Assembly: GCF_009789575.1 (NCBI RefSeq)
Contig: NZ_CP046908.1
Span: 1,364,001 to 1,428,000 of the forward strand
Direction: 5' to 3'
Source of the DNA: Stappia indica
GTDB taxonomy: Bacteria > Pseudomonadota > Alphaproteobacteria > Rhizobiales > Stappiaceae
DNA: 64,000 bases
Under the pieces are notes generated by a model. The model saw only the letters and a list, made by a program, of their open reading frames with translations, did no database searches and was not told the origin of the DNA. Every line of letters begins with the position of its first letter. Position 1 is the first letter of the stretch. Positions 41,059 to 47,772 of this stretch are shown piece after piece. The translations under genes were made by a program, and so were the position numbers.

Positions 41059-42144
41059 TCACCTCAGCTTCAGCGTGGCGAGACCGACCAGGGCGAGAAC
41101 CACGGCGATGATCCAGAAGCGGATCACCACCTGGCTTTCGGTCCAGCCCAGATGCTCGAAGTGATGGTGGATCGGCGCCATCTTGAAGACGCGCTTGCCG
41201 GTGAGCTTGAACGAGGCGACCTGCACGATCACCGAGACGGCCTCCAGCACGAACAACCCGCCGATGATCGCCAGCACGATCTCGTGCTTGGTCGCCACCG
41301 CGATGGAGCCGATCATGCCGCCGAGCGCCAGCGAGCCGGTATCGCCCATGAAGATCGCCGCCGGCGGGGCGTTGAACCACAGGAAGCCGAGGCCCGCGCC
41401 GATCACCGCGCCGCACAGCACGGCCAGTTCGCCCGTACCCGGCACATGGTGGATCTGCAGGTAGTCGGCGAAGACCGCGTTGCCCGACAGATAGGCGATC
41501 AGGCCGAAGGAGGCCGAGGCGATCATCACCGGCACGATGGCGAGGCCGTCGAGGCCGTCGGTCAGGTTGACCGCATTGCCCGCCCCCACCACCACGAAGG
41601 CGGCGAAGGGAATGAAGAAGATGCCGAGGTTGAATGCCAGGTCCTTGAAGAACGGAAAGCCGATGGAGGTGCCGTGCGCGCCGACTTCCAGCAGCGTCAC
41701 GCACCAGGCGGCAAACCCGGCGATCAGGAATTCCAGGCCCAGCCGGCTGCGGCCGCTGAACCCCTTGTGCGAGGCCTTGGTGACCTTGAGATAGTCGTCG
41801 TAGAAGCCGATGGCGCCGAAGCCCACCGTCACGCCGAGCACGATCCAGGTGTAGGGATTGGCAAGGTTCGCCCAGAGCAGCGTCGCGACGATCATGCCCG
41901 ACAGGATCATCAGGCCGCCCATCGTCGGCGTGCCCTTCTTGGTCAGCAGGTGGCTCTGCGGGCCGTCCGCGCGGATCGGCTGGCCGCGGCCCTGCCGCAG
42001 GCGCAGCGAGGAGATGATCATCGGGCCGAACAGGAAGATGAACAGCAGCGCGGTCATGATGGCGCCGCCGGTCCGGAACGTGATGTAGCGGAACACGTTC
42101 AGTGCCGAGAACTGGTCGGCAAACTCGACGAGGAAATAAAGCAT
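41059..42144 (-). CDS. mraY: phospho-N-acetylmuramoyl-pentapeptide transferase MraY
   Basis: MraY transfers phospho-MurNAc-pentapeptide onto undecaprenyl phosphate to give lipid I. The 361-residue polytopic membrane protein starts [24 protein letters not shown], and has the family blocks [35 protein letters not shown], and [14 protein letters not shown]. The catalytic Asp-containing segment [15 protein letters not shown] and the C-terminal [24 protein letters not shown] are intact. AGGAACG lies 6 bases before the ATG at 42144. The frame is open well upstream, but the extra residues are a shadow of the murE-F tail. It follows the fused murEF by eight bases. Confidence 0.96.
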
Positions 42145-42152
42145 CGGCGTTC

Positions 42153-45100
42153 CTATTCGGCCCCGTCGTCGTCGACGGGGAAATCGCGTTTGAGGGCCTC
42201 GACCAGCGGCCCCATGCGGGTGCCGAGCGAGCCCTTGATCATGATGACATCGCCCGGGCGAATATCCTCGACGAGCAGCGGCTTCAGGCCCGCCGCCTCT
42301 TCGGAATAGGCGCCGCGCTGGTGCTTCGGCAGCAGCTCCCACAGCGCATGCATGCGCGGACCCACGCAGTAGACGAGATCCGCACCGGATTCGGCAACAG
42401 GCCGGTTGAGCGCCTCATGCAGCTGCAACTCGGCCTCGCCCAGCTCCAGCATGTCGCCGATCACCGCGATGCGGCGGCCGTTCCGCTCGATGGGGGTTTC
42501 CTTCAGGAGGTTCAGCGCCGCGCGCATCGAGGCGGGATTGGCGTTGTAGCTCTCGTCGATCAGCGTCGCGCGGCCGTTCGGCAGCTTCAGCGCCGCCTGC
42601 TCGCCGCGTCCCTTCGGCGCGCGGAAAGCGGCCAGCGCCATGCCGGCCCGGGCGAGATCGCCGCCGAGTTCCGCCACCGCCCCCAGCACGGCAAGGCTGT
42701 TGGTGACCAGGTGCACGCCCGGCGCGCCGACCTTGTAGGTGATCTGCTGGTCGAAGACGTGACCGGAGATCGAGCTGCAGCCCGTCTGCGCCGCAACGCG
42801 CTCGGCCTGCACGTCCGCCGGGCCCTGCCGCCCGAACGTGGCGATGCGGCGCACGCCGGCGGCCTTTGCCAGATAGGTCAGAAGGTCGAACTGGTTGTTG
42901 TCGCGGTTGAGCAGCGCCAGTCCGCCCGGCTCCAGCCCGAGGAAGATCTCGCCCTTGGCCTGGGCGATACGCTCGACCGAGCCGAAGAACTCCAGATGCA
43001 CCGCCTCCACCGTGGTGATCGCCGCCACATGCGGGCGGACCATCTGCACCAGCGGCGTGATCTCGCCGGGATGGTTCATGCCGATCTCGAAGACACCGTA
43101 TTCGGTGTCCGCCGGCATGCGCGCCAGGGTCAGCGGCACACCCCAGTGGTTGTTGAAGGAGGCGACCGGCGCATGGGTGCGCCCGGACGGCGACAGCGCC
43201 AGCTTCAGCATGTCCTTGGTGCTGGTCTTGCCGACCGAGCCGGTCACCGCGACGATGCGGGCACGGCTGCGGGCGCGCGAGGCCCGGCCGAGATCGCGCA
43301 GCGCCTCCAGCGGGTCCTCCACCACCAGATAGCGCCCCTGCGGCGGCAGCGCGCCGACCCGCTCGCGGGCGACGATGGCGAGCGCGGCCCCGGCCTCGCA
43401 GGCCTTGGCCGCGAAGTCGTGCCCGTCGAACCGCTCTCCGGCGATGGCGACGAAGGCCTCTCCCGCGGCAATGCTGCGGCTGTCGATGGAAACGCCGGTG
43501 ACATGGGGTATGTCGGAACCGCGCAGCTCGCCGCCCGTCGCCTCGACCATCTCGTCCAGATACCACAGGGGCCGGTCGGGCTCGGCCGCGATCGGCTCGC
43601 CGACGACCGGCGCCGGCTTCACGACCTGGGCAGCGGGCGCCGTGAACGACGGGACCGCCGGCGCGACGAAGGCCGGATGCACGCTGGCCGCAACAGGCCT
43701 GGGCGCGACCTCGGGCTCCGGCGCGATGTCCGCCTCGAGCTCGGGCTCGTCCGCAGCAGCGAAGATCTCGTCCTCGGTCGCGGGCTCGTCTAGCGGTTCG
43801 GCGCCCGGCTCGTCCTGGGCGATCTCGTCGACCGGAGCCTCGTCCGCCGAAAGATCCTCTTCGGCCTCGTCGGCACCCTCGAGGAGTTCGTCGGCGTCAA
43901 GCTCGAGAACGAACTCCGTCTCGGAAGCCGGCTCATCGGTCTCGCTCTCCGCGTCGAAGGGCTCAGCGCCGTTCTCCTGCTCGCCCTCGCCCTCTTCCGC
44001 ATCGGCCGGCAAGAGCTCGTCCGCCAGAAGATCTTCCTCGGTCAGCCGGATTTCCGGAAAGCCTCTGCTCTCCGACCCGTCCTCGGCCAGCAGATCGTCC
44101 TCGTCCGCAGGCGCATCTTCAGCCTGCGGCATCTCGGCCATCAGCTCGTCTTCGGCGGGCTCCTCTTCGCTCGGGCCCTCTTCGAGCACCTCGTCCTCAT
44201 CGACCAGATCCTCTTCGGCGAGGTCTTCGGCCAGCAGCTCGTCTTCCGCAGCCTCCTCGGAAAGCGCGAAGTCCTGCGCCTCGTCGGCGTCCCGGTCGTC
44301 CTCTTCCTCGAACAGTTCGTCGAGCAGATCGTCCTCGGACAGTTCCAGGTGGAGCCCGTCCTCCTCGCCCGTCTGCTCAGCTGTCTCTCCGGCGATCTCC
44401 TCGCTCAGGTCAAAGCTCTCGGCGAGCGCCTGCTCCAGCGCATCGTCGAGATCGCGCGCGCCGTCGAGCCCCAGGTTGATGCCGCCGTCCTCGGCCGCGT
44501 CGAACAGCGCGCTTTCGGCCAGGGCCGCAATCGCCTCGCGGGCGACCTCGTGGTCGGAGAAGGGCAGCACCTCGTCGCCGACGATCTGCCCCGGCTCGTG
44601 CCCCTTGCCGGCGATGCACAGCACGTCGCCCGGCTGCAGCATGCCGATGGCCGCCTCGATGGCATCGCGCCGGTCGCCGATCTCCAGCGCCTCCGGCGCC
44701 CCGTCCATCACCTCGGCGCGGATCGCGGCAGGGTCTTCGCTGCGCGGATTGTCGTCGGTGACGATGACGATGTCGGCCTGCCGGGCCGCCGCCTGGCCCA
44801 TCAAGGGCCGCTTGCCCGGATCGCGGTCGCCGCCCGCGCCGAACACCACAATCAGCCGCCCCTTGGTGAAGGGGCGCAGCGCCGCCAGCGCCGTGTCCAG
44901 CGCGTCGGGCTTGTGGGCATAGTCGACGAAGACCAGCGCCCCGTCGTCGGTCTCGCCGATCAGTTCCAGCCGGCCCGGCGCGCCCTGCAGATCTTCCAGC
45001 GCCGACAGCGCCACGCTGGTCGGCACGCCGCAGCAGATCGCAAGGCCCGCCGCGACCAGCGCGTTCGACACCTGGAACCGCCCGGCCAGCGGCAGGCGCA

Positions 45101-45977
45101 CCTCGAAGAAGCCCTCGATCGTCTCGATCGACAGGACCTGCGCGAACCCGTCGTGGCGGATGTCGAGCAGCTTCAGGTCGTCGCCACCCTCGCCGACGGT
45201 GAAGACGCTGCGGCCGAGCTCATGCGCCAGTGCCAGGACGCGCCCGGCATAGGGCGCCGACGGCTCCAGCACCACCGGCTGGTCGCCCTCCAGCAGCGTA
45301 TCGAACAGCCGCATCTTGGCCGCGAGATAGTCCTCGACATCGGCATGGTAGTCGAGGTGATCGCGCCCCAGATTGGTGAAGGCCGCAGCCGTCAGGCGCA
45401 GCCCGTCGAGCCGGCGCTGGTCGAGCCCGTGGCTGGAGGCCTCGAGCGCTGCATGGGTGATGCCGTCGTCGGCGAGCCGCGCCAGCGTCTGGTGCAGCGA
45501 CACCGGGTCCGGCGTCGTCAGGCTGCCATACTGGGCGCCGCGGCTGGTCACCGTGCCGATGGTGCCGAGGCTCGCCGCCTCGAAGCCCGCATGGGCGAAG
45601 ATCTGGCGGACGAAGACGGCGACGGAGGTCTTGCCGCTGGTGCCGGTCACCGCAACCAGCGTCTCGGGCTGGCGCTCGTAGAAGCGGGCGGCCATCAGCG
45701 CCAGCGTGCGGCGCGGATCGTCGCTGACGATGACGGGGCAGCAGCCCTCATCGGGGCCGAGCGCCGCAAGCGGCGTGTCGCTGCCCACCAGCAGGGCGCC
45801 GGCGCCGGCATCGCGTGCGGCCGTGATGAAACGGGTGCCGTCCGCCTTCGCGCCTTTCAGCGCGGCGAACACAAATCCCCTGGAAACCGTTCGGCTGTCT
45901 GCGGACAATCCGGCGATTTCGGTTTCGAACTCGGGCGCGGCGAGCACCTGTTCGCCGGTGAGGTCCTTCAGCAGCAT
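42153..45977 (-). CDS. murEF: fused MurE-MurF ligase with long acidic linker
   Basis: One uninterrupted 1274-codon frame carries two ligases. Residues 1-490 are MurE (adds meso-diaminopimelate): P-loop [13 protein letters not shown] at 110-122, [16 protein letters not shown] and the Dap-binding DDNPRSE near 408. Residues 803-1274 are MurF (adds D-Ala-D-Ala): [19 protein letters not shown]-loop [13 protein letters not shown] at 912-924, [15 protein letters not shown] and [16 protein letters not shown]. Between them, about 310 residues (DNA 43572-44507) form an Asp/Glu-rich, repetitive linker that ends in a Pro/Ala hinge. I see no stop codon, and no Met or good ribosome site near the MurF start, so it is a true fusion in this sequence. 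The murE start at 45977 has no clear ribosome site. Confidence 0.93.
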
Positions 45978-46059: not shown

Positions 46060-47772
46060 TCAGTAGGAAATCGATACCGTCTCCGTCTTGTCTCCGAACT
46101 TCGGCAAAACTCCGAGCATCGGGGCAACCCGTCGGATGATCGCCGAGGTGACCGGCGCGGTGTTCAGGCCCGCGGTCGCGCCGATGCCCTCGCGCTCGGA
46201 CTTCGGCTCGTCGAGCACGACCAGGACCACGTAGCGCGGCTTGTCCATCGGGAAGGCAGAAAGGAAAGAATTGCGGCGCTTGTTGGATACGTAGCGGCCG
46301 TTCTCGATCTTTTCCGCCGTTCCGGTCTTGCCGCCGACCATGTAGCCCGGCACTTCCGCGCGCCGGCCGGAGCCCGACAGCACGTTGAGGCGGAACAGGT
46401 AGCGCATCATCTCGCTGGTCTGCGGGCTGACCACCTGCTTGGCCAGCTTGTCCGCCTCCTCGCGGGTGCGCGGCACGAAGGTCGGCGGGATCAGGCGGCC
46501 GCCATTCATCAGGGCCGCCGTCGCCACCGCCGTCTGCAGCGGCGTCACCGAGATGCCGTGGCCGAAGGAGATCGTGATCGCCGCCAGCTCGTTCCAGCGC
46601 GGCGGCAGCAGGGGCGTTGCCACTTCCGGCAGGTCCGTCTGCAGCCGCGAGGTCAGGCCGAGCCGCTCCATGAAGGCCTTCTGCTCGTCGACGCCGACCG
46701 ACAGCATCATCTTGGCCGTGCCGATATTCGACGAATAGATGAAGGTCTCGGCGACCGACAGCATGCGTCCCTTGCCGTGGAAGTCGCTGATCGTCCGCCC
46801 GCCGACGCGCATCGGCCGCGTGGCGTCGAAACTGTCGTTCATCGTCACCTTGCCGCTGTCCAGCGCCATGGCGACGGTGAAGCCCTTGAACACCGAGCCC
46901 ATCTCGTAGACGCCGCCGGACGCGCGGTTCATGCGGTCCTTTTCCAGCGCCTGGGCCCGGTCGTTGGGATCGAAGTCGGGGAGCGAGGACATGGCGACGA
47001 CCTCGCCGGTCTCCGCGTCGAGAACGACGCCGATGCCGGCGATGGCCCGGTAGCGCTCCAGCGCCTTCACCAACTCGTCGCGCACCACATGCTGCACCCG
47101 CAGGTCGACCGACAGCTGCACCGGCTCCATCGAGCGGTCGCTGGCAAAGCCCAGCTCGCGCAGGTCGCCGAGCCAGGCCCGGTCGACCGCCAGCTCCATG
47201 CCGGAAATGCCCTGGTTGTCGACATTGACCGAGCCGACGATATGGCCGGCCGTCGGCCCGCCCGGATAGAAGCGGCTGTTCTCTTCCAGGAACCCGATGC
47301 CCGGAATGCCGAGATCGTGGATCTGCTGGCGCTGGCGCGGGGTCAGCTCGCGCTTCAGCCAGATGAAGCCGGCATTGCTCGCCAGCCGCCGGCGCACCGC
47401 ATCGGTGCCCAGCTCCGGCAGCACGCTGGCAATGCCCTCCAGCGCCTCATCGACGTCGAGGATCTTGCGCGGCTCGGCGAACAGCGAGGCGGTCTTGATG
47501 TCGGTCGCCAGGATCTGGCCGTTGCGGTCCAAAAGGTCGGGGCGCGAGGCGGCGACGCTGTCCTGGGCCGAGATATAGGAGGCGGACTTGGACTCCTCGC
47601 TCATGCCCAGCATGATCAGCCGGCCGCCGATGGCCATGTAGACCACCGCGAACACCGCCATCGCCATGTGCACCCGCGCCCGCACGGCGCGCGTCGAGGG
47701 ACCGCGCGGCACATGCCGCTCGCCGACCGTGCGGCGCTGCAGGAAGGAAACGGGCTGATCCGTAACCGCCAT
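46060..47772 (-). CDS. ftsI: division-specific peptidoglycan transpeptidase FtsI (PBP3)
   Basis: FtsI cross-links septal peptidoglycan and partners with FtsW. The 570-residue class B PBP has one N-terminal transmembrane segment near 36-56 (MAMAVFAVVYMAIGGRLIML). Its pedestal carries RPDLLDRNGQILATD. The transpeptidase motifs are in place: active Ser293 in GSVFKGF, SSN at 347-349 in IYSSNIGTAKM, and KTG at 482-484 in GGKTGTAEK. The protein ends DKTETVSISY. It follows ftsL by nine bases and precedes murEF. The spacing suggests one transcript from mraZ. Beta-lactams would acylate Ser293, as in all members of this class. Confidence 0.95.
   Translation of the reverse strand: MAVTDQPVSFLQRRTVGERHVPRGPSTRAVRARVHMAMAVFAVVYMAIGGRLIMLGMSEESKSASYISAQDSVAASRPDLLDRNGQILATDIKTASLFAEPRKILDVDEALEGIASVLPELGTDAVRRRLASNAGFIWLKRELTPRQRQQIHDLGIPGIGFLEENSRFYPGGPTAGHIVGSVNVDNQGISGMELAVDRAWLGDLRELGFASDRSMEPVQLSVDLRVQHVVRDELVKALERYRAIAGIGVVLDAETGEVVAMSSLPDFDPNDRAQALEKDRMNRASGGVYEMGSVFKGFTVAMALDSGKVTMNDSFDATRPMRVGGRTISDFHGKGRMLSVAETFIYSSNIGTAKMMLSVGVDEQKAFMERLGLTSRLQTDLPEVATPLLPPRWNELAAITISFGHGISVTPLQTAVATAALMNGGRLIPPTFVPRTREEADKLAKQVVSPQTSEMMRYLFRLNVLSGSGRRAEVPGYMVGGKTGTAEKIENGRYVSNKRRNSFLSAFPMDKPRYVVLVVLDEPKSEREGIGATAGLNTAPVTSAIIRRVAPMLGVLPKFGDKTETVSISY

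Follow-up and report, generated by a model that had tools for sequence, protein, structure and literature searches.

Background

Fusions of the peptide ligases MurE and MurF into one polypeptide have been described among Proteobacteria and Bacteroidetes, with linkers of about 20 residues between the two enzymes (PMC4929429). The MurE-MurF protein of Bordetella pertussis is 945 residues long, of which about 20 form the linker, and has been found to be active, with an elongated and flexible shape (PMC6420597); the same paper names Pseudovibrio as fused too. Both papers cite such fusions as evidence for a single cytoplasmic Mur complex in which the substrate is passed from site to site (PMC6420597, PMC4929429). 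Here we analyze a fused gene, murEF, that lies in a stretch of 64,000 nucleotides from the genome of Stappia indica (contig NZ_CP046908.1, positions 1,364,001 to 1,428,000), called the window below. Its product resembles that of B. pertussis in domain order, in being a single polypeptide and in holding both ligases, but differs in its length of 1274 residues and in its acidic linker of 313 residues, which bears out the very long linker claimed in an earlier reading of the DNA (the sequence-only reading).

A literature search limited to open-licence papers turned up no apparent description of a long or acidic MurE-MurF linker, and PMC10745416 yielded nothing further on linkers. We consider it very likely that murEF encodes a bifunctional MurE-MurF ligase on a long, disordered polyanionic tether. 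The enzymes themselves are ordinary and the type of fusion is known, and the linker architecture, apparently undescribed, is new in degree and not in kind.

The murEF gene and its two ligase parts

The murEF gene is a single coding sequence of 1274 codons on the minus strand (42153-45977), a strand that the sequence-only reading had left unstated, running from an ATG at 45977 to a TAG at 42153-42155 with no internal stop, and the calculated mass of the chain is 134.7 kDa. The same ATG is found at the identical aligned position in all 30 fused genes tested. The MurE part (residues 1-488, 44514-45977, minus strand) scores 515.3 bits against the NCBIfam profile TIGR01085 (cut-off 257.3) and 740 bits against NF001124 (cut-off 476, residues 13-488), and its residues 8-481 can be aligned with the E. 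coli MurE structure 1e8c over nearly the whole domain. The MurF part (residues 802-1274, 42156-43574, minus strand) scores 497.1 bits against TIGR01143 (cut-off 288.6) and 731.8 bits against NF010693 (cut-off 544), with an NCBIfam span of 802-1270, and can likewise be aligned over nearly the whole domain with the E. coli MurF structure 1gg4. Pfam finds two stretches each of the Mur ligase middle and C-terminal domains. These profile results confirm the one open frame in the order MurE then MurF that the sequence-only reading had reported, and the alignment to separate MurE and MurF families that it had proposed as a check covers both at full length.

The motifs that it had described as intact were all recovered by motif scan, at residues 112, 913, 408 and 1145 and all on the minus strand: the MurE P-loop GTSGKT (residues 112-117, 45627-45644), the MurF P-loop GSVGKT (residues 913-918, 43224-43241), the MurE DDNPR (residues 408-412, 44742-44756), which we take to be the Dap-binding motif, and the MurF NANPASM (residues 1145-1151, 42525-42545). 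DDNPR is conserved in the alignment with 1e8c, as is a GKGHE motif at residue 457. These motifs, together with the Bordetella precedent, suggest that both halves are active. With 855.3 bits, spread over two stretches, the window protein falls short of the cut-off (1023) of the NCBIfam model for the bifunctional protein, NF008896 (PRK11929); it lies outside that model by score, yet has its domain order and should work alike.

Neither a second MurE nor a second MurF was found in a search of the whole 5.1 Mb genome. The sole extra match was weak (28%) and had coordinates in the murC region of the window, and it was rejected as a separate ligase. Both enzymes are essential by established knowledge of the pathway. 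In the reading that we favor, the N-terminal half would add meso-diaminopimelate (meso-Dap) to UDP-MurNAc-L-Ala-D-Glu, after which the C-terminal half would add D-Ala-D-Ala and yield the UDP-MurNAc-pentapeptide for MraY. The 313-residue tether would keep the halves together and leave each free to move through its own catalytic cycle, and its negative charge may keep the chain soluble and extended. A fusion may also provide equal amounts of both activities, as the sequence-only reading proposed.

Composition of the linker

The linker (residues 489-801, 43575-44513, minus strand) contains 116 aspartate or glutamate residues (D/E, 37%) and 6 lysine or arginine residues (K/R, 2%), for a net charge of -110. 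In a charge-hydropathy plot it falls on the disordered side (hydropathy H 0.433 versus a boundary of 0.539, at a net charge of 0.35 per residue), whereas the two ligase parts plot as folded; the linker is probably intrinsically disordered in the cell. The composition is rare within its own genome, as judged from a 464 kb sample made up of the window and 400 kb in 20 further stretches. Of the 1771 stop-free frames in this sample that reach 120 residues, two contain a 120-residue stretch in which D/E makes up 28% or more and K/R no more than 6%, namely murEF and one other; these limits were chosen after the linkers had been seen. The other frame (L184, from 15209 onwards, plus strand) encodes a small protein that starts CGGCGTKYYDLN...CPKCG and has an acidic tail, and that we take to resemble the FYDLN-acid family. 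A search for linker-like sequence elsewhere in the genome returned nothing at E <= 10, the linker matching only itself.

Fused and split genes in the family

The distribution of the fusion was followed in 87 genomes of the family, which represent seven genera (g1-g7) and all contain MurF. The Stappia group is g1 and the Pseudovibrio group is g6 (including Pseudovibrio exalbescens, G018 and G028); g2 includes Breoghania (G001), g3 'Stappia sediminis' (G005), g4 Pannonibacter indicus (G008) and g7 Roseibium aggregatum (G032). All of the fused frames and 16 of the 54 unfused genomes were read by sequence. Fused MurE-MurF occurs in 31 of the 87, the window included (13/14 in g1, 3/3 in g3 and 15/16 in g6), with MurF-containing frames of 982-1660 amino acids, and the presence of an intact fused frame in so many genomes argues that the frame is neither a chance event nor a sequencing slip. 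A chance open frame is ruled out by these fused relatives and by homologues across the full length; the window protein is 94% identical to that of G080 from end to end. Two further genomes, G077 and G017, have MurF frames of 595 and 614 amino acids that start at a contig edge. Their MurE frame, on another contig, passes into an acidic tail where that contig ends, so that the linker is interrupted by the contig ends. The MurF frame is at most 637 amino acids in the other 54 genomes (g2, g4, g5 and g7). Counted by named loci, 5 of 80 are fused and 75 unfused.

The linkers of the 31 fused genes range from 17 residues (G018) to 692 (G016). D/E content is 28-47% and K/R content 0-6% in 30 of them; the least acidic linker, that of G027, has 117 residues with 24% D/E and 5% K/R. 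We propose a group of long-acidic-linker MurEF proteins in the Stappia and Pseudovibrio groups, defined by a fused frame and a linker of more than 100 residues in which D/E makes up roughly 28% or more and K/R roughly 6% or less. It takes in 29 of the 31 fused genes, that of the window among them, and leaves out those of G018, for its 17 residues, and G027, for its 24% D/E. The Pseudovibrio proteins belong to the same family as the window protein and are likewise fused. Their linkers measure 17-692 residues and contain 24-47% D/E in the 15 genomes read, but cannot be aligned with those of g1, and unfused Roseibium and Pannonibacter stand between the two fused groups in the tree (see below).

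The unfused murE and murF genes of Roseibium, Pannonibacter and Breoghania are orthologs that lie next to each other, and they encode domains about 60-70% identical to those of the fused protein. They differ in that MurE ends 1-10 residues past its domain (a range that holds for all 16 split genes read), with a stop codon and no long acidic remnant, and in that MurF has its own ATG and Shine-Dalgarno sequence. Apparent C-terminal MurE extensions in g4, suggested by frames of about 700 amino acids, were rejected when reading of the sequences gave tails of at most 10 residues.

Two side observations concern the same sample. The last 36 or so residues before MurF form a conserved and much less acidic segment, unlike the remainder of the linker, in 9 of the 15 g6 linkers (loci L044, L045, L007, L050, L051, L052, L009, L053 and L054), with the consensus AIDKP.WTIVPHINLLD..IKSEYE.QMIELP and small variations; it is possibly a docking or folded element. 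The MurF frames at G002:C1:3620483-3621694 (436 amino acids) and G046:C3:241206-242183 (348 amino acids) are short, their matches ending at positions 406 and 327 of 473; the gene should be essential, and its shortness here may come from a truncation, a frameshift or a faulty assembly.

Fusions outside the family

Sampling was extended to the order, class and phylum. The order was represented by 150 genomes, of which 136 have MurF. They contain 22 MurF frames longer than 850 amino acids, 4 of them in the family itself; of the remaining 18, 10 hold both ligases, with 6-23 residues between them, and the other 8 do not hold both. The class sample (142 genomes, 118 with MurF) gave 8 such frames besides that of the window; real fusions account for 4 of these, their linkers measuring 2-12 residues. 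The phylum sample comprised 150 genomes, 145 of them matched, and among the matches listed 6 further long frames were examined: one real fusion (G488) with a linker of about 10 residues, as estimated from BLAST ends, one frame with MurE in another frame, and four MurF-like domains without MurE. A long stop-free frame by itself was therefore rejected as evidence for fusion, since it corresponded to a real fusion in just 10/18 cases in the order and 4/8 in the class, the others carrying MurE in a different frame.

At least 15 fusions are thus found outside the family in sampled Pseudomonadota. They resemble the window gene in forming one frame in the order MurE-MurF, but in all of them the ligases are joined by 2-23 residues that lack a long acidic region; the 17-residue linker of G018 lies within their range. 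A long acidic linker was not found outside the family in the order and class samples, nor, among the matches listed, in the phylum sample. The fusion of MurE and MurF is therefore recurrent in Pseudomonadota and already known; the unusual element is the acidity of the linker and the variability of its length, not the fusion as such. The sequence-only reading had named Bordetella as having known fusions, and had proposed a search of alphaproteobacteria for the same one. Fusions are indeed published in Bordetella, but they are not confined there; they do recur among alphaproteobacteria, but the long acidic linker has been seen in this family only.

The searches also brought up some other MurF-like sequences. 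Loci L201, L202, L203 and L204 have frames of 1070-1603 amino acids in which the middle and C-terminal domains are MurF-like and MurE is missing, and two of the four have a PGA_cap capsule-synthesis domain. Three genomes of the order (G121, G196 and G226; f36/g42) gave no MurF at E <= 1e-70 with the window MurF as query, and G121 and G196 fell just below the TIGR01143 cut-off in the phylum sample, which lacked G226; these genomes, of about 7-8 Mb, may have a divergent MurF.

Origin of the fusion

Trees were built from the joined ligase parts, one with FastTree on 72 rows and a second, quick tree on 48 of those rows, which omits 5 near-duplicates and 19 of the 26 outside rows; G027 is in neither. 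In the 48-row tree g1 and g3 group together (support 98) and g6 stands apart; the split genera g4, g5 and g7 are placed beside g1 and g3 (support 94), and the branching order of the 72-row tree matches. A single fused clade receives a p value of 0.040 in the approximately unbiased (AU) test, a marginal result from the quick tree in a test made after the first tree had been seen. The trees thus point, marginally, to two changes, which could be two separate fusions or a single fusion plus a fission. The former is somewhat favored, since none of the 16 split genes that were read retains a long acidic remnant.

Turnover and probable selection in the linker

The linkers of different genera show no recognizable homology, the hhalign probability being below 0.1% in all three comparisons (22, 9 and 6 aligned columns). 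For g1-g6 and g3-g6 the real linker score was higher than that of every one of 30 column shuffles, but for g1-g3 it was reached by 2 of 30 shuffles; a reversed control for g1-g6 scored as high as the real comparison. Runs of at least four EA, EP or DA units occur in 11 of 30 linkers, and the DNA of the seven longest runs (16-186 residues) is an in-frame hexanucleotide array. The repeated units are GAAGCC in G016, G015 and G024, GAGCCC in G086 and G075, GACGCA in G083 and GAAGCA in G081. The G016 array, known from one assembly, has 93.7 perfect copies of GAAGCC over 562 bases (L046 3139-3700) and encodes 186 residues within the murEF coding sequence. Growth of such arrays preserves the reading frame, since a six-base unit cannot shift it. 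A second array in the same genome (L046 2929-3014) has a different six-base unit in 14.3 copies, and the window linker contains only weak short repeats.

Selection was examined in 12 pairs of near-relative species, with the limitation that linker alignments are uncertain. The ratio of nonsynonymous to synonymous substitution (omega) is 0.10-0.42 in the linker, compared to 0.04-0.10 in MurE and 0.03-0.11 in MurF. Neutral evolution was simulated by random substitution only, with the smaller of the ligase synonymous distances (dS) and with third-position GC content (GC3) set per genome, in 500 runs per pair. Simulated D/E content falls well below that observed, which was reached by 0/500 runs in 11 of the 12 pairs and by 1/500 in the closest pair of the Pseudovibrio group; K/R content was uninformative for the three closest pairs, where 127-151 of the 500 runs were as low. 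These comparisons indicate that linker acidity is maintained across species amid turnover of length and order, and that the architecture is probably selected.

Alternative explanations

One alternative, which we hold to be possible but rather doubtful, makes the acidic linker a scaffold that binds basic membrane partners such as MurG and MraY, so that the fusion would be an assembly platform and not just a tether. In the window MurG, MraY, FtsW and FtsI compute as basic and MurD and MurC as acidic, with isoelectric points of 9.6 for MurG and 9.3 for MraY (the MurG, MraY, MurC and FtsW frames were trimmed by hand). Basic MurG and MraY are common in bacteria, and nothing ties them to this clade in particular. 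The short motif [DE][DE][LIMF][LIMF] occurs 66 times in 29 linkers (500 shuffles gave 17.2 on average and never more than 32), but it is absent from 7 of the 29, and 32 of the 66 occurrences come from four close Stappia-group genomes. Bordetella MurE-MurF is reported to bind MurG with a micromolar dissociation constant (PMC6420597). The scaffold reading sits poorly with linkers that cannot be aligned between genera in any of the three comparisons, and with the near absence of a linker in G018. The idea that the linker docks to basic partners, for instance MurG or MraY, is speculative.

A second alternative is that the linker is neutral filler, harmless and merely tolerated sequence added by slippage of short repeats after the loss of a stop codon. 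The wide spread of lengths, the EA, EP and DA runs, the hexanucleotide arrays of differing units, the lack of sequence common to different genera, the lower acidity in G027 and an omega above that of the domains in all 12 pairs are each what filler would predict. Against this, omega is well below 1 in all 12 pairs, the acidity does not decay as neutral substitution predicts, and acidity is common to clades with unalignable linkers, the fusions outside the family being short and without a long acidic region. We judge neutral filler to be improbable, and favor the tether whose architecture is probably selected.

It is more improbable still that a free-standing MurF is produced, either alongside the fusion or instead of it, through internal initiation or through proteolysis of the exposed linker, which if long and disordered would be protease-sensitive. 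Split MurF genes begin with an ATG at codon -2 behind a Shine-Dalgarno sequence of 4-6 bases in 16 of the 16 genes read, and an ATG at this ancestral position is retained in none of the 31 fused genes. Between 60 codons ahead of the MurF start and 29 codons past it, the window gene has a single in-frame ATG, that of Met810 (43548-43550, minus strand), which lies inside the MurF domain and has no Shine-Dalgarno sequence of 4 or more bases. Candidate internal starts do occur in a few relatives: a TTG at -3 after GAGGTG in G075 and G086, an ATG at -5 after GGAG in G020, and an ATG at +8 after GGAG in G085. The Shine-Dalgarno test is insensitive, being positive at only 2 of 30 MurE starts, so the missing MurF Shine-Dalgarno sequence is weak evidence and the missing ATG the stronger point. 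The frame through the linker is open in all 31 fused genes read; the stop codon or frameshift in 43572-44507 that the sequence-only reading had named as contrary evidence was sought and found neither in the window nor in its 30 fused relatives. Loss of a stop codon through an assembly or sequencing artefact is so improbable that it can be set aside: G077 and G017 do break at contig ends inside the linker, but nothing was found in its support, and it is contradicted by the 94% identical G080 gene and by fused frames with acidic linkers in independent genomes of three genera.

Several points nevertheless weigh against the reading of murEF as a bifunctional ligase on a selected acidic tether, beginning with the insensitive Shine-Dalgarno test just described. 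The 12 pairs used for selection share genomes and are not independent. Because the simulations cover substitutions only, slippage that adds EA, EP or DA units could sustain acidity without selection. Finally, neither length nor strong acidity of the linker is essential to the fusion, given that G018 manages with 17 residues and G027 with 24% D/E.

Genomic context

The murEF gene lies in a canonical dcw operon, with the order rsmH, ftsL, FtsI-type penicillin-binding protein, murEF, mraY, murD, ftsW, murG and murC, all on the minus strand. All of these genes score above curated cut-offs except ftsI and ftsW, the latter by a small amount (336.7 bits versus 337.5). The FtsI-type penicillin-binding protein (570 amino acids, 46060-47772, minus strand) is below the NCBIfam cut-offs and is named by weaker family matches and position; its gene is upstream of murEF across a gap of 82 bases. 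The mraY gene (41059-42144, minus strand) starts 8 bases past the murEF stop.

Implications for the family

The ligase halves are separated by 117-692 residues in 30 of the 31 fused genes read, and by 17 in one Pseudovibrio. These long, acidic and probably disordered tethers argue against rigid channeling as the general reason for fusing the two enzymes. The range of tether lengths that occurs naturally in this essential enzyme is suited to testing local concentration, channeling and the recruitment of partners, and the family also shows a long coding hexanucleotide array inside an essential gene. Tentatively, and with a good deal of doubt, we suggest that the linker may be a functional, selected polyanionic scaffold in an essential cell-wall enzyme, gained twice independently (in the Pseudovibrio group, and in the Stappia group with its sister genus) and tuned rapidly in length by in-frame hexanucleotide slippage. 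If this is true, the length of the tether between consecutive enzymes of the pathway would vary among species, and perhaps among strains, with the reading frame never broken.

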